Origin: Kiloniellaceae bacterium
GTDB lineage: Bacteria > Pseudomonadota > Alphaproteobacteria > Kiloniellales > J153
DNA: 51,162 nt
Assembly: GCA_021776055.1 (NCBI GenBank)
Contig: JAJFGP010000178.1
Coordinates: 1-51,162, forward strand
Direction: 5' to 3'
The position numbers and the translations under genes were made by a program. Below the pieces are notes generated by a model. It searched no databases. It saw nothing but the letters and a program-made list of their open reading frames with translations, and was not told where the DNA came from. This document shows positions 25,262-37,417 of this stretch, in pieces. Numbering within the stretch: the first letter of the stretch is position 1; every line of letters starts with the position of its first letter.

Positions 25262-25660
25262 ATGAGCAAAGCTGGCGCTGATGCAATCACCAGTATCCGC
25301 TTCGATGCCGATGGCCTGGTTCCGGCGGTTGCCCAGCAGCACGATACCGGTGAGGTCCTTATGCTGGCTTGGATGAACCGCGCGGCGGTGGCTGAAACCC
25401 TGGCGACGGGCCGGGTTTGCTACTGGTCGCGGTCTCGCCAGCAACTATGGCGCAAGGGCGAGTCCTCAGGGCAGATTCAACGACTGATCGACATGCGCCT
25501 GGACTGCGATAGCGATGCCTTGCTACTTCGTGTCGAGCAGACCGGAGTGGCCTGTCACACGGGACGCCGCGCCTGTTTCTACCGGCAATTACAGGCCGAC
25601 GGCGAAGAGCGAGAGGTGCTGCCGGTCGAGGTCGATCCGGGTGATCTCTATGGCGGCTGA
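25262..25660 (+). CDS. hisI: Phosphoribosyl-AMP cyclohydrolase
   Basis: A 132-residue HisI enzyme that opens the adenine ring of phosphoribosyl-AMP in histidine synthesis. Signature residues are present: EVLMLAWMN, RVCYWSRSRQQLWRKGESSG, the metal-binding DCDSDALL and CHTGRRACFY with its Cys/His zinc ligands. There is no HisE domain, as in most alphaproteobacteria. The start is ATG 25262 with GGAG upstream; the longer frame from 25226 adds an unrelated leader. It overlaps the start of modA by 11 bases, an odd pairing of histidine synthesis with molybdate uptake. Confidence 0.95.
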   Translation: MSKAGADAITSIRFDADGLVPAVAQQHDTGEVLMLAWMNRAAVAETLATGRVCYWSRSRQQLWRKGESSGQIQRLIDMRLDCDSDALLLRVEQTGVACHTGRRACFYRQLQADGEEREVLPVEVDPGDLYGG

Positions 25661-26441
25661 CCCTGGCCGTCGCCGTTTTCTGGCGTTGTTGGGAGCGACC
25701 CTGGCGACTCCCATGGCCGGCTCGGCGCGAGCCGAGCCGCAAGCCACACTGTTTGCGGCGGCCAGCACAACCGAGGCAATTACGGCCGTTGCCGCCACGT
25801 TCGCCGCTGATGGACATGGTATTTTGCGGCCAGTCCTCGCCGCCTCCTCCACGTTGGCGCAACAGATTGTTCGGGGAGCGCCGGCCGATCTCTATTTATC
25901 GGCAAACGGCGCCTGGATGGATTTTCTGGCCATGCGCGGCGCCATCGAAGCGAACAGCCGCATCGACTTGCTAAGCAACCGGCTTGTGCTGATCGCGCCT
26001 GCGGATAGCTCCTTATCGTTGCGCATCGAATCGGGCTTCGGCTTGGCGGCGGCACTCGGCGACGGCCGCCTGGCGATGGGCGAGCCGACACACGTGCCCG
26101 CCGGAATTTACGCGAAATCGGCGCTACAGGCCCTGGGTGTGTGGGCGCAAGCGGCACCCCGAGCCGCTTACATGGCTGACGTGCGCGCCACCTTGGCGCT
26201 GGTCGAACGGGGCGAGGCGGTCGCGGGCATCGTCTACGCCACGGACGCCGCGGCCAGCCGGAAGGTGCGCATCGTGGATACGTTTCCAACCAACAGTCAT
26301 CCGCCGATAACCTACCCGCTCGCGATCATCGCCGGAAGGCGCACTCCGGAAACCATCGCTCTCTACGAGTATCTGCGGGGTGCCGAGGCGCAGGTGATTT
26401 TCCGAGCGCACGGCTTTATGCCCATCGCGAGCGGGGCCTGA
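25650..26441 (+). CDS. modA: Molybdate-binding protein ModA
   Basis: A 263-residue periplasmic molybdate-binding protein. It starts at ATG 25650 inside the end of hisI. The signal carries GRRRFLALLGATLATPMAGSARA, a Tat-like RR followed by a hydrophobic stretch. Mature landmarks fit ModA: LFAAASTTEAI (oxyanion loop), LAASSTLAQQI, APADLYLSAN and VPAGIYAKSALQALGVW, then GIVYATDA. It supplies ModBC, whose genes follow directly. ModA versus a tungstate-specific relative cannot be separated by eye. Confidence 0.93.
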   Translation: MAADPGRRRFLALLGATLATPMAGSARAEPQATLFAAASTTEAITAVAATFAADGHGILRPVLAASSTLAQQIVRGAPADLYLSANGAWMDFLAMRGAIEANSRIDLLSNRLVLIAPADSSLSLRIESGFGLAAALGDGRLAMGEPTHVPAGIYAKSALQALGVWAQAAPRAAYMADVRATLALVERGEAVAGIVYATDAAASRKVRIVDTFPTNSHPPITYPLAIIAGRRTPETIALYEYLRGAEAQVIFRAHGFMPIASGA

Positions 26442-26447
26442 CTCGCC

Positions 26448-27140
26448 GTGTTGACCCTTACCCCGCTGGAGGCCGAAGCTCTAAACCTAAGTTTGCGCGT
26501 GGCCTTGTGGAGCGTCGCGACCAGCTTGCCGGTCGGGCTGCTAATAGCCTGGCTACTGGCCCGCCGGGACTTCATCGGTAAGACCGCCTTGAACGCTCTG
26601 GTGCACCTGCCGTTGGTCTTGCCGCCGGTCGTTGTCGGGTACCTGCTGCTCGTCCTCCTTGGGCGCGAAGGACCTTTGGGCCGCCTGCTGTTTTCGCTCT
26701 TCGGCATCACCCTGCCATTCACCTGGCAGGGAGCGGCGCTGGCGGCGGCCGTGATGGCCTTTCCGCTGATGGTGCGCGCCATGCGCCTGTCGCTCGAGGC
26801 GGTCGATCGACGGCTGGAGGCCGCGGCACGCACTCTCGGCGCGCGTCCAATAATGGTCTTCGCGACGATTACCCTGCCGCTGATGGCACCAGGCATCGTC
26901 GTCGGTGCCGTATTGGCGTTCGCGCGCGGTCTGGGCGAATTCGGTGCAACCATTACCTTCGCCGCCAATATTCCTGGCGAGACCCGAACGTTGCCCATTG
27001 CCCTTTACACCCTTATTCAGAGTCCGGGCGGCGAGGCTGCGGCCCTGCGCCTGACCGTTATTTCGGTGGTTCTATCCCTGGCGGCGCTGGTCGCCTCCGA
27101 AGTCATGGCGCGTCGATTGCGCGCCCGGATGGATGGCTAA
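26448..27140 (+). CDS. modB: Molybdate ABC transporter permease ModB
   Basis: A 230-residue permease of the ModB family with five or six membrane helices. Visible motifs are LPLVLPPVVVGYLLL and the ATPase-contact loop EAAARTLGARPIMVFATITLP. GLGEFGATI is typical of ModB. The start is GTG 26448, 6 bases after modA. Its end overlaps modC by 8 bases, showing one operon. Confidence 0.95.
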   Translation: MLTLTPLEAEALNLSLRVALWSVATSLPVGLLIAWLLARRDFIGKTALNALVHLPLVLPPVVVGYLLLVLLGREGPLGRLLFSLFGITLPFTWQGAALAAAVMAFPLMVRAMRLSLEAVDRRLEAAARTLGARPIMVFATITLPLMAPGIVVGAVLAFARGLGEFGATITFAANIPGETRTLPIALYTLIQSPGGEAAALRLTVISVVLSLAALVASEVMARRLRARMDG

Positions 27141-28269
27141 CCCCATGCTGGAAATAGCTGTCGGGAAACACCTGGGCAAATTCACGATTGACGCGAATAT
27201 AACCTGTGAAACAACTGGGATCGTGGCGTTATTTGGCCGGTCCGGTGCCGGGAAAACGTCGATCGTCAACATGCTTGCCGGGTTGCTGCGGCCCGATCAT
27301 GGCCGCATTACCGTCAATGGCACGACCCTGTTCGATTCCAGCCAAGGGATCGATCTGCCGCCGGAGCGGCGCCGGCTTGGCTATGTCTTTCAGGAAGACC
27401 GCCTATTCCCGCACATGACCGTGCGCGCCAACCTGCATTACGGCCTGCGCCGGGTACCGCCGGGCGAGCGCACCATCCAAGCCGACCAGGTCGTCGCCCT
27501 GCTTGGGCTCGAGGGATGCCTGGAACGGCGGCCCCATCACTTGTCGGGCGGAGAGAAGCAGCGCGTGGCACTCGGCCGTGCTTTGCTGGCCAATCCCCGC
27601 CTTTTGCTGATGGACGAGCCGCTGGCCTCCCTCGACCAGCCGCGCAAGGACGAAGTCCTGCCGTTCATCGAGCGGCTGCGTGACGAAATGGCAATACCCA
27701 TCGTCTACGTCAGCCACTCGATGCCCGAGATCGTGCGCCTGGCGGATACCATGGTCCTGATCTCCGACGGCCGGGTTGAAGCCGTCGGAACCGTCGACGA
27801 TCTCACCAGCCGCCTGGATCTGCGGCCTCTGACCGGCCGTTACGAGGCCGGCGCGGTCATCGAGGCCCGCGTCGCCGGCCATGACCGCGACTTTGGCCTG
27901 ACCGAGCTCGCCTTTGCCGGAGGCCGGCTGCGGGCGCCCCATGTGAACCTGCCGGTCGGCACACGGCTGCGGCTACGCATTCGAGCCCGCGATGTAGCGC
28001 TGGCCCTGGAGGCGCCACAACGCAGCAGCATTCTGAATGCCATCCCCGCAACGGTGCGCGACATCGGCACCGAAGAAGGCCCCCAAGTCGATCTTCGTCT
28101 GGATGCGGGCGGCGCCACATTCTGGGCCCGGATCACGCGGCGATCCCTAATCGACCTCGGGTTGCAACCCGGAACGGCCGTAACGGCCCTGATCAAAGCT
28201 GTCGCAATTGACCGCTACAGCCTCGGCCGTAGCGCGGGTCCGGGGCGCTTTCTCGGCGATGACAATTAA
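27133..28269 (+). CDS. modC: Molybdate ABC transporter ATPase ModC
   Basis: A 378-residue ATPase. Walker A GRSGAGKTS, Q-loop GYVFQEDRLFPHM, signature LSGGEKQR, Walker B LLLMDEPLASLD and H-loop YVSHSMPEI are intact. The C-terminal regulatory part contains a molybdate-binding MOP/TOBE-like domain (about 300-370: SSILNAIPATVRDI, VDLRLDAGGATFWARIT). ATG 27133 overlaps modB; ATG 27145 is an alternative. No Mo-responsive operator is recognised. It converges on the SPOR lipoprotein gene 24 bases downstream. Confidence 0.95.
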   Translation: MANPMLEIAVGKHLGKFTIDANITCETTGIVALFGRSGAGKTSIVNMLAGLLRPDHGRITVNGTTLFDSSQGIDLPPERRRLGYVFQEDRLFPHMTVRANLHYGLRRVPPGERTIQADQVVALLGLEGCLERRPHHLSGGEKQRVALGRALLANPRLLLMDEPLASLDQPRKDEVLPFIERLRDEMAIPIVYVSHSMPEIVRLADTMVLISDGRVEAVGTVDDLTSRLDLRPLTGRYEAGAVIEARVAGHDRDFGLTELAFAGGRLRAPHVNLPVGTRLRLRIRARDVALALEAPQRSSILNAIPATVRDIGTEEGPQVDLRLDAGGATFWARITRRSLIDLGLQPGTAVTALIKAVAIDRYSLGRSAGPGRFLGDDN

Positions 28270-29719: not shown

Positions 29720-29983
29720 ATGCACTCGTTTCATCGCCTTATGTTGCTTTCGACAATCGCCTTTCTGGCGCCCCATCCTGTCTTTGCGTACGTCGACCCT
29801 GGAACCGTTTCGATGGTTATTCAGGGGCTATTTGCCGTTGTCTTCGGCGCCGCCACGGCCTGGGTCATGCGCCCTTGGCAGTTATTGAAATCACTGTTCC
29901 GTAAGCGCAAAAGCATGCCGCCATCCAATATTTCGGACGCCGGCGCACCGGGCGGGGCAAATGATACAACCGCCGAGCGGTAG
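29720..29983 (+). CDS. Small AYVDPGT membrane protein (surface cassette, gene 1)
   Basis: An 87-residue protein. The hydrophobic leader (LMLLSTIAFLAPHPVFA) is followed by AYVDPGTVSMVIQGLFAVVFGA, a conserved-looking loop plus membrane helix. The tail is basic then polar (LLKSLFRKRKS). The AYxDPGT motif recurs in small uncharacterised membrane proteins next to polysaccharide or surface-modification genes. It lies 26 bases before the methyltransferase gene in the same direction and is probably the first gene of a three-gene cassette. Function unknown. Confidence 0.65.
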   Translation: MHSFHRLMLLSTIAFLAPHPVFAYVDPGTVSMVIQGLFAVVFGAATAWVMRPWQLLKSLFRKRKSMPPSNISDAGAPGGANDTTAER

Positions 29984-30009
29984 CAAGCGCCGGACCGGGT
30001 AGCGTCGCA

Positions 30010-31425
30010 ATGGCCGACCCTAGTCGACAAATTCGGCTCCTTGCGCGTAAAGAGATTACAGTCGACCCCTCTTCTTTCGTTGATCCGCAGGGTTTCCTCT
30101 TTCACTGGGACGGAGGGATCTACCGCTGCATTCGAGGCGTAGCCGCCCCCCTCTTTCGTCAACTTATCGATGAGGGAACGTTGGCGGCGCTAGAGAGGGA
30201 TCGCGGCCTTGTTCACACGAGCGCAACATCATTTTCCATCGAGGATGAGCCCGATGGTCTGGTCGTCGAGCACTCGCGCGTGGCGCCGCTTAGCTATTGT
30301 GTTGAATGGTGCCCTTCCATGTTACGCGACGCCGGCCGGCTTACGCTCGAACTCGCCATTGAGCTGGCGCCACGGGAATTGATGCTGCAGGACGCCTATC
30401 CTTGGAATGTCCTTTTCTCCGGCAGCACACCGATCTTTGTAGACCTGACGTCGATCGCGCCCGCCGATCGCACCGCCATCTGGCCCGCCCACGAACAGTT
30501 CGAAGCCTTCTTCCTGCGGCCGTTATCCCTGGCCATGGAAGGCAAGGGCAAAGTGGCGCGCGCCTTGCTGCATGACAATATCGATGGGATCGGCCTGGAG
30601 GATTTTTCGGCGCTGATGTCGGCTTCTTATCGCCTTCGCCATCCGGGTTTGGCGTTAGCCCGATGGATTGATCGGTTTCTGCAACAGCGCCGCGCCCTCA
30701 AGGACAAGGTGCGTCATTTAGCCGAGCGCGCAACGACCAACGTTGACGCATCGGTCAGGCGTCGCTTTCTTCAGGGCACACTCCGCCGCTTGAATCGGAT
30801 TAATTTTGTCAGCCAAGCCGATCCCTGGGCTCACTACTATGCCGAGATCGGCCCCGAGGTCGATAAGCAGGCCAAACTGGATTTAGTCACGGGCGTGCTC
30901 GAAAATATCCAACCGGGCAACGTGCTCGATCTTGGCTGCAATACCGGCGTCTTCTCCCTGCTCGCGGCACGCCAGGGCATGCGCGTGATTGCTGTGGATA
31001 GCAGTGAATCTTGCATCGAAGCGCTTTACGCCGCGGCACGGCAGGAGTCTTTGCCGGTTACACCGCTGATCGCCGACGTGGTCAACCCGACGCCGGCGTT
31101 TGGTTTCATGGGCCGGCAATATCCCGACCTTTGGCACCGCGTTCGCTCGGACACCGTGTTCTGCTTGGCCCTGATGCACCATCTTCACATATCGGGCCGG
31201 CAATCCTTCGAGCGAATTGCCGAGTTGTTGGATCATGTGACGATCCGGCACCTGGTTTTCGAATTCGTGGCCCATGACGATGCAAACATGCCGCTGCTGC
31301 CCCAGCGGCGCAGGATCGACTATAGTTTGGAAAGTGTTGTCGCGGCGCTCAGGCGTTATTTCAAGGACATCGACGTGCGGCCGTCCGACCGTGCAACGCG
31401 GAGACTTCTGCTGTGCCACAAATGA
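30010..31425 (+). CDS. Class I methyltransferase with unusual N-terminal domain (surface cassette, gene 2)
   Basis: A 471-residue cytosolic protein. The C-terminal part (about 275-470) is a Rossmann methyltransferase with SAM motif VLDLGCNTGVFSLLAARQG and the acidic end of strand 2 (VIAVDSS), then CLALMHHLHISG. The N-terminal 250 residues (FVDPQGFLFHWDGGIYRCI, LMLQDAYPWNVLFSGSTPIFV) form a separate domain with a kinase-like N/D pattern that I do not recognise securely; a faint likeness to NoeA-type nodulation methyltransferases is possible. The start is ATG 30010. It overlaps the next gene by 13 bases, indicating translational coupling. Confidence 0.78.
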   Translation: MADPSRQIRLLARKEITVDPSSFVDPQGFLFHWDGGIYRCIRGVAAPLFRQLIDEGTLAALERDRGLVHTSATSFSIEDEPDGLVVEHSRVAPLSYCVEWCPSMLRDAGRLTLELAIELAPRELMLQDAYPWNVLFSGSTPIFVDLTSIAPADRTAIWPAHEQFEAFFLRPLSLAMEGKGKVARALLHDNIDGIGLEDFSALMSASYRLRHPGLALARWIDRFLQQRRALKDKVRHLAERATTNVDASVRRRFLQGTLRRLNRINFVSQADPWAHYYAEIGPEVDKQAKLDLVTGVLENIQPGNVLDLGCNTGVFSLLAARQGMRVIAVDSSESCIEALYAAARQESLPVTPLIADVVNPTPAFGFMGRQYPDLWHRVRSDTVFCLALMHHLHISGRQSFERIAELLDHVTIRHLVFEFVAHDDANMPLLPQRRRIDYSLESVVAALRRYFKDIDVRPSDRATRRLLLCHK

Positions 31426-33257
31426 ACGGCAGATGGGGTGTTGCTGGAAGCTTTTTTCTGGTTGCCGTGTCGCTGGCCGCAGGTCTGCATATCCTTCTGG
31501 GTGACTACCTGTTGTTTCACTCAGACCCTCTTAGTTTGAGTGTCTACCTGAGCGCCGCGTCGTTCGTCGTGCTCCCCATGCTACTCGTTCTTAGCCTGCC
31601 TCTACAGGTCGTATCGCGGCAAGGGAAGCAGAGAATTCGGGTTTTCGCGGCGATGGGTTTGGCCGTTCTGGTCGCTACCGTATTTCTTATGTTGGCGGTG
31701 TCGTTCGCCGGCACGTGGCTCGACGTGACTTTGGTCAAGCGTCTTGCCCGGCACCCCTTCTATCTTTTCGCGGCCTGTCTTCTACCGGCCCTTGGGGCGA
31801 TCATAGCTCGCCGCAGCCCAAGGGAAATTGCCGCACGCACGGAGCAACTCGGCCTAGTCCTGTTTGCAGCCGCAATTGTCAGCGTTTTCGTGACGCAAGT
31901 GATCCGACCTGACCGCGCACCCGGATCGGGAAAACACCTCGTGCTCATGGTCCTCGACGGGATGCCGACTCAGTATCTCCACAGGTACGAGCCAACCGCG
32001 CCAAATGGCCCTTTGGACCAGCTTGCCTCGGAAGGTCTGTTGTTGACCCAGGCACGAACGTCGGCGGCATGGACCTATGCCTATTTCGGCGCGCTCTACA
32101 GCGGTTCGACGCGGGTCGTGGAGGCGCCGCGTGATGAAAAGCCGGCCGTAGAGAGTCTCCTCGGCCGGTTGCAGCGCGGCGGTGTCGCCGCGCGCTGGAT
32201 CGCTTACCACCGCAACGGCATCCCGGAAGGTAGCGCCGCTGCCATCAACGATTATCGCGGGCTGCGCTCCTACTTACTGACTGAGAATACCGCTTGGATC
32301 CCGCGGCTGCTCAATCTCGACTATCACATGGCCATTGCCAGTGTGGCCACCGCGCAGAACCTCAGGGGCACATGGGGACGTGCCGTGTTCAATTGGCTCA
32401 GCGGCGGCCAGCAAAAATACCGCGGCATTCTGACCGAACTGTTGTTGCCACAGCTGCGTGAACAACGGGCCAACGCAAGCGACAGCTTCACACTTTTCCA
32501 TACAGGCTGGGACTGGCTGGGCGACCCCGCCAAGGAGGCACAAGCGCTGCTCCCGGCAGCGCAAGAAATTATAGGCCTTGCCGATGTTGCTCCGGGCGGC
32601 AGCGAGAAAATTCGCGCCAGCGACTATCAGTACGGACCTGAGTTCGAGCCGTTGGCAGCACAAATCCGCCGCGGCAACAGTTTAAAAATAGTCGATGCAG
32701 GCGTGCACCTCAAAGATTTTTTGTCGGCGCTTGCCGATGACGAATCGCTGCGCAATACCGTGGTCATTGTCACCTCTGACCACGGCAGTATGTATGCCAA
32801 GGGCCGCTTCTGGTATGGCTTCCACCCAAACGAGGAGGTGATACGGGTACCGCTCCTGATTTTCAACGCGGGCCGAACGGGACAGGACGACCGTCTTGTC
32901 GGCACGCTCGACGTCAATGCGAGTGTGCTCGGCTTTTTCGGACTCTCGCGCGAAAGCGATTCGGGGCAATCGCTCTTCGGGTCTAACCGTGATCGCGCCA
33001 GCACCACGACGCTCACGTTGCGGAGCGACCGCAATAAGGAGTGGTTTCTGGTCATCAGTGAGCCGAAACGCAAATACCAGGTCAACTTGCACCCGGAAGG
33101 CCGCGGCGAAACCGTGACCTTGCGCCTCGACGGCTACGACGAGACGCCGATCGCGGAGACCATTGGTCCGCCTGAAGGCAAGGCCGACCTCATCGCAGAG
33201 GCGATACGCAATTATAGTATCGACCCCGAGGGCATTCACCCGGCGCTACGCCCATAG
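31413..33257 (+). CDS. Membrane-anchored alkaline phosphatase-fold enzyme (surface cassette, gene 3)
   Basis: A 614-residue protein with four or five N-terminal membrane helices (about 10-170) and a large periplasmic sulfatase/phosphotransferase-fold domain. Metal-binding landmarks are VLMVLDGMPTQY near the start of the fold and VIVTSDHGSMYAKGRFWYGFHPNEEV later. The nucleophile region reads TQARTSAAWTYAYFGALYSG: no C-x-P-x-R sulfatase signature, so a Thr or Ser nucleophile as in phosphoethanolamine or phosphoglycerol transferases is more likely. It overlaps the methyltransferase gene. The expected role is to modify or trim a surface lipid or glycan; that is inference. Confidence 0.75.
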   Translation: MPQMNGRWGVAGSFFLVAVSLAAGLHILLGDYLLFHSDPLSLSVYLSAASFVVLPMLLVLSLPLQVVSRQGKQRIRVFAAMGLAVLVATVFLMLAVSFAGTWLDVTLVKRLARHPFYLFAACLLPALGAIIARRSPREIAARTEQLGLVLFAAAIVSVFVTQVIRPDRAPGSGKHLVLMVLDGMPTQYLHRYEPTAPNGPLDQLASEGLLLTQARTSAAWTYAYFGALYSGSTRVVEAPRDEKPAVESLLGRLQRGGVAARWIAYHRNGIPEGSAAAINDYRGLRSYLLTENTAWIPRLLNLDYHMAIASVATAQNLRGTWGRAVFNWLSGGQQKYRGILTELLLPQLREQRANASDSFTLFHTGWDWLGDPAKEAQALLPAAQEIIGLADVAPGGSEKIRASDYQYGPEFEPLAAQIRRGNSLKIVDAGVHLKDFLSALADDESLRNTVVIVTSDHGSMYAKGRFWYGFHPNEEVIRVPLLIFNAGRTGQDDRLVGTLDVNASVLGFFGLSRESDSGQSLFGSNRDRASTTTLTLRSDRNKEWFLVISEPKRKYQVNLHPEGRGETVTLRLDGYDETPIAETIGPPEGKADLIAEAIRNYSIDPEGIHPALRP

Positions 33258-33427
33258 TTCGAATTGCAAAATTCTGAAACGACTCCCTTTCCGGCAAATA
33301 AAACGTTAATAAACATAGTAAATTTCTTAAAACAGATTGATAATTACTTAAGATTTTACTAAAATAGACTAACCGCGGCGGAACCGGACTGGGGTTGCTG
33401 GCCGATCGCGTGGGAAGGGGCGGTGTA

Positions 33428-33721: not shown

Positions 33722-34324
33722 ATGTCTCAGCTCGATCTGCTCCTCCCGCTGGGTTTGTTCGCGATTTCCACGACCATCACACCGGGACCCAACAACGTGA
33801 TGCTCACGGCTTCGGGCGTGAATTTCGGATTTCGCCGCACCGTTCCGCATATGCTTGGCATCGCCCTGGGGTTTCCAGCCATGGTCGCGGCTATTGGGCT
33901 TGGCCTCGGTGGACTCTTCGAGGCCTACCCGCAGATCCATGAAATTCTGAAATACGTGGGTATCGCATACTTGCTGTGGCTGGCCTGGAAAGTCGCAACG
34001 GCGGGGCAATCCGAAGAGGCGGGCGCCAAGGCAAAGCCACTGAACTTTCTGCAAGCGGCGGGATTTCAGTGGGTCAATCCCAAGGCCTGGATCATGGCGG
34101 TAGGCGCGATCGCCACCTACACGACGCTGCAAGGAGATGTCACGCAGGAGGTGCTGCTGATCGCCGCCGTATTCTGCCTCGTGACATTTCCGACCGTCGC
34201 TATCTGGACGCTCTTCGGCACCGCCATCCGCCGCCTTCTCAAGACGACCCGGGCCCGGACCGTGTTCAATTGGAGTATGGCGGCACTGCTCGTCGCCTCT
34301 CTCCTGCCCTTTCTGGTTGGCTGA
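33722..34324 (+). CDS. LysE/RhtB-family amino acid exporter, copy A
   Basis: A 200-residue inner-membrane exporter of the LysE/RhtB family with about six helices. Family signatures are TPGPNNVMLTASG in the first helix, GIALGFPAMVAAIGLGLGG, and NFLQAAGFQWVNPKAW. Substrates are usually amino acids or derivatives such as homoserine, threonine or cysteine-pathway compounds; the exact one is unknown. The start is ATG 33722. It is about 78% identical by eye to the next gene, a tandem paralogue, with 34 or so of the 43 differences being conservative or in loops. Confidence 0.9.
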   Translation: MSQLDLLLPLGLFAISTTITPGPNNVMLTASGVNFGFRRTVPHMLGIALGFPAMVAAIGLGLGGLFEAYPQIHEILKYVGIAYLLWLAWKVATAGQSEEAGAKAKPLNFLQAAGFQWVNPKAWIMAVGAIATYTTLQGDVTQEVLLIAAVFCLVTFPTVAIWTLFGTAIRRLLKTTRARTVFNWSMAALLVASLLPFLVG

Positions 34325-34451: not shown

Positions 34452-35054
34452 GTGCCACAACTTGATCTGCTGCTCCCCTTAAGTTTTTTCGCCTTTTCGA
34501 TGGGCATCACGCCGGGACCAAACAACGTGATGCTGACAGCTTCGGGAGTGAACTTTGGCTTCCGCCGCTCCGTTCCGCACATGCTTGGGATTGCGTTGGG
34601 CTTTCCCGTCATGGTCACGGCCATTGGTCTGGGGCTTGGTGGGGTTTTCGAGGCCTATCCGCTGATTCATGAAATTCTGAAATACTTCGGCATCGCCTAC
34701 CTACTCTGGCTGGCCTGGAAAATCGCCACCGCCGGGCGCACGGAAGACACCGGCACCAAGGCCCAGCCATTGAATTTCCTGCAAGCGGCAGGATTTCAAT
34801 GGGTCAATCCAAAGGGCTGGGTCGCAGCCATGGGAGCGATCGCTACCTATACAACGTTGCACGGAGATGTCGTTCAGGAAGTCTTCCTGATCGCCGTCGT
34901 TTTCGGCCTTGTGACGATTCCGTGCATTACCGTCTGGACGCTGTTCGGCACCGCGATCCGCCGCCTTCTTAGATCGGACCGAGCCCGCACCCTGTTCAAT
35001 GGGAGCATGGCAACACTGCTGGTCGCCTCTCTCGTGCCCATCCTATTCAGCTAA
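34452..35054 (+). CDS. LysE/RhtB-family amino acid exporter, copy B
   Basis: A 200-residue paralogue of the preceding gene, colinear without gaps. The signature TPGPNNVMLTASGVNFGFRR and the NFLQAAGFQWVNPK segment are unchanged; differences cluster near the N-terminus (SFFAFSMG versus GLFAISTT), in the central loop (TAGRTEDTGTKAQ) and in the last helices. That pattern fits substrate divergence. The start is GTG 34452. The stop region overlaps the convergent methyltransferase gene by 12 bases. Confidence 0.9.
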   Translation: MPQLDLLLPLSFFAFSMGITPGPNNVMLTASGVNFGFRRSVPHMLGIALGFPVMVTAIGLGLGGVFEAYPLIHEILKYFGIAYLLWLAWKIATAGRTEDTGTKAQPLNFLQAAGFQWVNPKGWVAAMGAIATYTTLHGDVVQEVFLIAVVFGLVTIPCITVWTLFGTAIRRLLRSDRARTLFNGSMATLLVASLVPILFS

Positions 35055-36863: not shown

Positions 36864-36884
36864 CGGCCGCCGAAGAAAGGAATT

Positions 36885-36961
36885 GGCGCGCCCGGCAGGA
36901 CTTGAACCTGCAACATCCGGCTTAGAAGGCCGGTGCTCTATCCAGTTGAGCTACGGGCGCG
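36885..36961 (-). tRNA. tRNA-Arg (anticodon TCT)
   Basis: On the minus strand the molecule folds fully. The acceptor arm GCGCCCG pairs with CGGGCGC. The D arm is GCTC/GAGC. The anticodon arm CCGGC-CTTCTAA-GCCGG has loop anticodon TCT, and the T arm is GCAGG-TTCAAGT-CCTGC. The discriminator is G and CCA is encoded at 36885-36887. It reads AGA and AGG codons. Confidence 0.97.
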
Positions 36962-37340: not shown

Positions 37341-37417
37341 TGGTCGGGGCGAGAGGATTCGAACCTCCGGCTTCCTGCTCCCAAAGCAGGCACTCTACCA
37401 GGCTGAGCTACGCCCCG
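37341..37417 (-). tRNA. tRNA-Pro (anticodon TGG)
   Basis: On the minus strand the acceptor CGGGGCG pairs with CGCCCCG. The D arm is GCTC...GAGT, the anticodon stem CCTGC...GCAGG encloses TTTGGGA with anticodon TGG, and the T arm is GGAGG-TTCGAAT-CCTCT. The discriminator is A and CCA is encoded (37341-37343). Confidence 0.97.

Follow-up and report, generated by a model that had tools for sequence, protein, structure and literature searches.

The genes noeA and noeB of Sinorhizobium meliloti have been recognised as host-range nodulation genes since 1995, and a role in Nod-factor modification is still described as a hypothesis (PMC9048898). In Legionella anisa, the genes Lani_1193, Lani_1194 and Lani_1195 have the same layout as the genes described here, and the Lani_1194/NoeA family was described in a 2022 survey of Legionella kinases as a fusion of a kinase and a methyltransferase (PMC9758233). 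Lani_1193 and the alkaline phosphatase (AP)-fold protein Lani_1195, a NoeB homologue, were conserved neighbours in 65% and 38%, respectively, of 816 neighbourhoods (PMC9758233). A comparable fusion is found in WbdD, the chain-terminating kinase-methyltransferase of the Escherichia coli O9a O-antigen, which phosphorylates the end of the polymannan O-antigen and then methylates that phosphate (PMC3482155). Here we analysed three coupled genes of a Kiloniellaceae bacterium, encoded on contig JAJFGP010000178.1 of assembly GCA_021776055.1 (the whole stretch of 51,162 nucleotides is referred to as the window). We are close to certain that this trio is a NoeA-type module; it is a diverged version of one that is widespread and enzymatically uncharacterised. 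Its three open reading frames (ORFs) are:

29720-29983, forward strand: small membrane protein gene, 87 amino acids, with the motif AYVDPGT (ORF call)
30010-31425, forward strand: NoeA-family gene, 471 amino acids (ORF call, Pfam and homology to NoeA)
31413-33257, forward strand: membrane-anchored AP-superfamily gene, 614 amino acids (ORF call, Pfam and motif residues)

An earlier, sequence-only reading of the window had reported this coupling, and its coordinates proved exact: a gap of 26 bases (29984-30009) separates the small gene from the NoeA gene, which overlaps the third gene by 13 bases (31413-31425). A different ATG for the third gene, at 31422, would give an ATGA overlap; a GGAG at 31400 suits the GTG start better. 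The same reading knew of no named system with these three parts, a view overturned by the shared layout of the S. meliloti nodL-noeA-noeB and Legionella Lani_1193-1195 loci. The module is thus known in outline and lacks biochemical characterisation. In S. meliloti the order of small DPGT ORF, noeA and AP-fold gene is that of the window, NoeA is homologous over its full length, and a Thr likewise occupies the nucleophile position of the third protein. However, the window NoeA is only about 28% identical and falls into a deep clade of its own, the window's third protein lies outside the NoeB family (a 16-bit match, with no PHxP), and nodL and a nod box context are absent. In Legionella, Lani_1193 holds the place of the small DPGT protein, from which we infer that the two correspond.

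The 471-residue protein matches S. meliloti NoeA and its relatives over residues 22-449 (91% of its length, 28% identity, E 3e-28; tblastn against plasmids), and a NoeA-family profile matches residues 3-464 with 556 bits, the window sequence itself being among the nine rows of that profile. The gene preceding noeA in the plasmid matches, labelled a hypothetical protein there, encodes an AYLDPGTG protein built like the small protein of the window. The small DPGT ORF, noeA and noeB occur in this order in Ensifer, Rhizobium, Novosphingobium and S. meliloti 1021. On pSymA of the last of these, an 82-residue AYLDPGTG ORF (locus L191, 1912-2160) immediately precedes noeA, overlapping it by 23 bases, and is absent from the cited gene list of the operon (nodL, noeA, noeB). 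The gene-neighbourhood search that the sequence-only reading had proposed shows the trio to be a unit with relatives elsewhere. A profile scan of genome contigs yielded 80 NoeA loci, from Alpha- and Gammaproteobacteria, Acidobacteria, Planctomycetes, Chloroflexi, Nitrospira, Armatimonadetes, Pelagibacteraceae and others. The small DPGT ORF was found within 1.2 kb of NoeA at 73 of these (directly upstream on the same strand at 66), and a NoeB-like gene of the AP superfamily was nearby at 53. In an even sample of the window's own class (289 genomes), NoeA was present at 21 places in 17 genomes, with the small gene adjoining it at 18, while the small gene was seen away from NoeA about a dozen times. 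Co-occurrence at this level in both datasets indicates that the pairing of the small gene with NoeA is more than chance. The window genome itself carries four NoeA units: that of the window, one beside a NeuB-family gene (C51), and two more (C4 and C90). Each of the three outside the window has a NoeB-like neighbour, as detected with a hidden Markov model.

Two domains can be delineated in the NoeA protein:

about residues 20-240: kinase-like domain, with R39, D128, N133 and D145
about residues 272-471: class I S-adenosylmethionine-dependent methyltransferase domain, with DLGCNTG at 307, HH390-391 and R464

Pfam recognises only the class I methyltransferase, at about residues 297-407 (PF13649, 35.7 bits; PF13489, 32.4 bits; cut-off 27 for both). 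The sequence-only reading had called the N-terminal domain unrecognised, which holds for Pfam but overlooks its membership of a published kinase-like family (PMC9758233). Across 65 NoeA sequences, R39 (the Lys equivalent), D128 (catalytic Asp), N133 and D145 (metal Asp) are invariant in every case, as are D307, G309, N311, G313, H390, H391 and R464 of the methyltransferase. The AlphaFold model of the protein was predicted with high confidence (predicted local distance difference test (pLDDT) 90.4, predicted template modelling score 0.91). It comprises a helix at 102-122, the D128/N133 loop, short strands, D145 and a long C-terminal helical part, followed by a complete methyltransferase, and the order of strands and helices matches that expected around a kinase catalytic loop. 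Together, the published description (PMC9758233) and the motifs suggest that the N-terminal domain is kinase-like, and we infer its activity and substrate. On this basis NoeA probably phosphorylates before it methylates, and does not simply methylate.

Among solved structures, WbdD ranks with the best matches to NoeA, both by sequence and by the fold of the methyltransferase part. Each of the two proteins joins a kinase or kinase-like domain to a class I methyltransferase in one polypeptide, and both have a His-His pair and a C-terminal Arg in the methyltransferase. Methylation of the phosphate by WbdD needs H132, H133, R203 and Y16; the O8 enzyme, which methylates sugars, lacks equivalents of the first three, and neither NodS nor RebM has a residue corresponding to R203 (PMC3482155). 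In NoeA, H390, H391, R464 and Y276 are invariant and occur in the same order as in WbdD, an equivalence drawn from topology and not from superposition. The His-His pair follows strand 4, and the final strand carries R464, with seven residues left before the window protein ends. The differences are that WbdD has a coiled-coil tail absent from NoeA, that the kinase parts lack detectable sequence similarity, and that no O-antigen exporter is adjacent to the NoeA gene.

The third protein has about five transmembrane (TM) segments (residues 7-167) followed by a periplasmic domain, which matches the Pfam sulfatase/AP fold with 41 bits (cut-off 25). D182, Thr221 at the nucleophile position, D456-H457 and H471 are kept in the third proteins of the window clade. 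The description of this protein as an AP-fold enzyme without the sulfatase Cys was accurate: the Cys or Ser of CxPxR is absent, and the aligned residue is Thr221, in AWTYAYF, which rules out a formylglycine sulfatase. A Thr at this position favours phosphoryl chemistry outside the membrane. Architecture and motifs (about five TM segments, a periplasmic AP-fold domain, a Thr nucleophile position, and DHG and His metal-site motifs) are shared with membrane enzymes such as EptA/MCR, lipoteichoic acid synthase, PbgA/YejM and sulfatases, a likeness that extends to the superfamily level only. Foldseek placed PbgA, EptA/MCR-type phosphoethanolamine transferases, ICR and sulfatases nearest among solved folds (probability 1.00 to PbgA, ICR and MCR), with a weak model (pLDDT 56) that supports assignment at that same level. 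We also considered whether this protein is NoeB proper and dropped the idea: a NoeB profile built without the window scored 16.4 bits, over the DHG stretch only. Profile-profile comparison gave 96% over just 94 columns around DHG. The NoeB motif HxxxPHxP has no counterpart, its H377/P381/H382/P384 columns reading Q/P/A/Q, and in place of the NoeB PHxP the window clade conserves FH363.

Besides the window, third proteins of this type were found once in the class sample and once in a 398-genome sample of the phylum. All three genomes carry NoeA of one deep clade (100/100 support) together with a small AYVDPG protein. Their NoeA proteins are 51-52% identical to each other, compared with about 25-30% to the remaining NoeA. 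The window and genome G268 have the three genes side by side, while G454 has its third gene on a separate contig. The trio of the window therefore represents a separate variant of the NoeA module, one that has been maintained and possesses a third enzyme of its own. As a separate observation, the G268 trio lies near two fusions, a phosphoenolpyruvate mutase-nucleotidyltransferase gene and a pyruvate kinase-ATP sulfurylase ORF, and near genes reading like NeuB and an aminotransferase; a phosphonate or nonulosonate surface locus is possible there (locus L141; 1716-3389, 3952-6150, 15411-16289).

The small protein begins with a hydrophobic stretch that a signal peptidase might cleave (VFA|YVDPG), continues with one more TM segment and ends in a basic tail (RPWQLLKSLFRKRK); it has no family in Pfam or NCBIfam. 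The features of the small AYLDPGTG family (signal-like N-terminus, AYxDPG, TM segment, basic tail and a NoeA neighbour) are all present in it. The domain also occurs with CDP-glycerol glycerophosphotransferase-like enzymes (PF04464). In two genomes it is fused to them, with no adjacent NoeA, and in two further genomes, likewise lacking an adjacent NoeA, it stands beside NoeB and PF04464. The fusion proteins share with the window protein the signal-like N-terminus, YLDPGTG and the TM segment, and differ in that their cytosolic catalytic domain is TagF-like and not NoeA. The loci combining the small domain with PF04464 are:

L164, 3933-5231, reverse strand
L167, 3851-5209, reverse strand
L162, 3259-4688, with a NoeB-family gene as well
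L163, 3368-6453, with a NoeB-family gene as well

These fusions and neighbourhoods suggest a membrane adaptor for cytosolic enzymes of surface-phosphate chemistry. Variants reading A-Y-[LIV]-G-P-G in place of DPG were also seen in genomes of the same class (L166 4984-5211, L168 4975-5226, L169 4944-5195 and L189 4942-5253), some of them near genes that, by eye, read like sulfotransferases.

Taken together, we hold with moderate confidence that the NoeA kinase-methyltransferase phosphorylates a precursor, either a surface glycan or a lipid, and methylates the phosphate it has added, with the small protein as its tether and the third enzyme acting outside. Judging from its sequence, the small protein would sit in the inner membrane with YxDPG outside and the basic tail inside, and, by analogy with the fusions to cytosolic TagF-like phosphotransferases, would hold the soluble NoeA at the membrane. 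The kinase-like domain, given its published likeness and invariant residues, may add phosphate to a hydroxyl group on a lipid or a lipid-linked glycan. The methyltransferase domain is predicted to methylate the new phosphate in the manner of WbdD, as the fusion to a kinase-like domain, the invariant His-His pair and the invariant Arg of the last strand would suggest. After export, the third protein would act outside the membrane, where Thr221 and a metal centre, both indicated by its motifs, may serve in the transfer or removal of a group of the phosphoryl type. The pathway envisaged in the sequence-only reading, with methylation in the cytoplasm and an AP-fold step outside on a surface molecule, remains the best current reading, but methylation alone does not: phosphorylation probably comes first.

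Several observations weigh against this model. The kinase-like domain has an Arg for the catalytic Lys and lacks a recognisable ion-pair Glu (PMC9758233). It has no Pfam match, and a Pfam scan of the 65 NoeA members gave no weak kinase signal. A profile of the N-terminal domain found no match in the Protein Data Bank at E up to 10. Structure prediction, the check proposed for this domain, gave a divided answer: the motifs and the order of strands and helices fit a kinase, but a Foldseek search with the whole model returned methyltransferases throughout its top 50, which leaves the kinase fold a putative one. To our knowledge, activity has been demonstrated for no NoeA-family enzyme. The domain order of WbdD is reversed (methyltransferase, kinase, coiled coil), with NoeA ending in the methyltransferase. 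A His-His pair after strand 4 occurs in other methyltransferases such as NodS, leaving R464 as the residue that discriminates at all, and its putative match to WbdD R203 is topological. Pfam enrichment around the 80 NoeA loci gave no recurrent family and no shared glycan pathway, and the window holds no glycan pathway genes, the trio's neighbours being modABC, a SPOR protein and LysE transporters.

Some of these points would also fit a scheme that we consider rather unlikely, in which the kinase-like domain is non-catalytic or has another activity (substrate binding, or nucleotidyl transfer of the SelO type), NoeA O-methylates a sugar hydroxyl, and the AP-fold enzyme separately adds phosphoethanolamine or phosphoglycerol to the same glycan. 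The Lys-to-Arg change and missing Glu (PMC9758233) are in line with it, as are the sugar-hydroxyl methylation carried out by the kinase-lacking WbdD homologue of E. coli O8 (PMC3482155) and the presence of the phosphoethanolamine transferases MCR, EptA and ICR among the nearest solved folds of the third protein. Yet strict conservation of R39, D128, N133 and D145 in 65 sequences, which span many phyla and include the highly diverged copy of the window, would be unusual for a dead enzyme. A decayed or repurposed window trio, in which the third protein has replaced NoeB and serves another role such as phospholipid or osmoregulated-glucan metabolism, seems unlikely. The branch of the window clade is long (3.61), the third protein falls outside the NoeB family, glycan genes are not next to the trio, and the genome has three further complete NoeA copies; however, all catalytic residues are retained, and the NoeA identity maintained across three distant genomes, along with the shared third protein, points to a variant under selection. 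Modification of a secreted signal or Nod-factor-like lipo-oligosaccharide in place of the envelope is improbable: noeA and noeB are nodulation genes of the nodL operon with a hypothesised role in Nod-factor modification (PMC9048898, PMC9758233), and a copy recruited in rhizobia could still act on Nod factor, but relatives are found in groups without Nod factor, among them Pelagibacteraceae, Acidobacteria, Chloroflexi, Planctomycetes and Nitrospira, and the small protein pairs with TagF-like phosphotransferases too.

Directly after the trio lies one further feature:

33258-33370, no strand: AT-rich intergenic patch, 113 bases, 26.5% G+C

The patch had been noted correctly, its G+C being practically the lowest among 113-base stretches of the window. 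The suggestion that it was compatible with transfer or a boundary fared less well and was dropped: the patch is present in one copy in the genome, with no repeat, and contains a promoter-like TTGATA-17-TAAAAT at 33337-33365 pointing away from the trio, and nothing positive supports such a role. We found no evidence of recent transfer at the patch, the G+C of the trio genes (57-60%) being near that of the window (61%). A single-copy, promoter-like sequence suits the ordinary upstream region of the next gene, and the patch is probably outside the module. Two tandem LysE-type transporter paralogues follow directly 3′ of the trio (33722-34324 and 34452-35054, forward strand), and tRNA-Arg(tct) (36884-36960) and tRNA-Pro(tgg) (37341-37417), both on the reverse strand, lie 3.5-4 kb past it. 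Upstream, a molybdate-type ATP-binding cassette transporter operon, modABC by reading, occupies 25515-28269 on the forward strand.

These results place noeA and noeB in a module that spans phyla and includes a small membrane partner that looks obligate. Its occurrence in phyla that lack nodulation argues against Nod-factor modification as the ancestral role of the module. The parallel with WbdD predicts a phosphate-methyl product for NoeA, which offers direct tests. More tentatively, the small DPGT protein could be a general membrane adaptor, serving NoeA and TagF-like transferases alike, with NoeA capping surface glycans or lipids with methyl phosphate across many phyla; rhizobial noeA-noeB and the window trio would then be versions of one unrecognised decoration system. 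The window adds that the third slot of the module can be filled by a different enzyme of the AP superfamily, travelling with its own NoeA clade.

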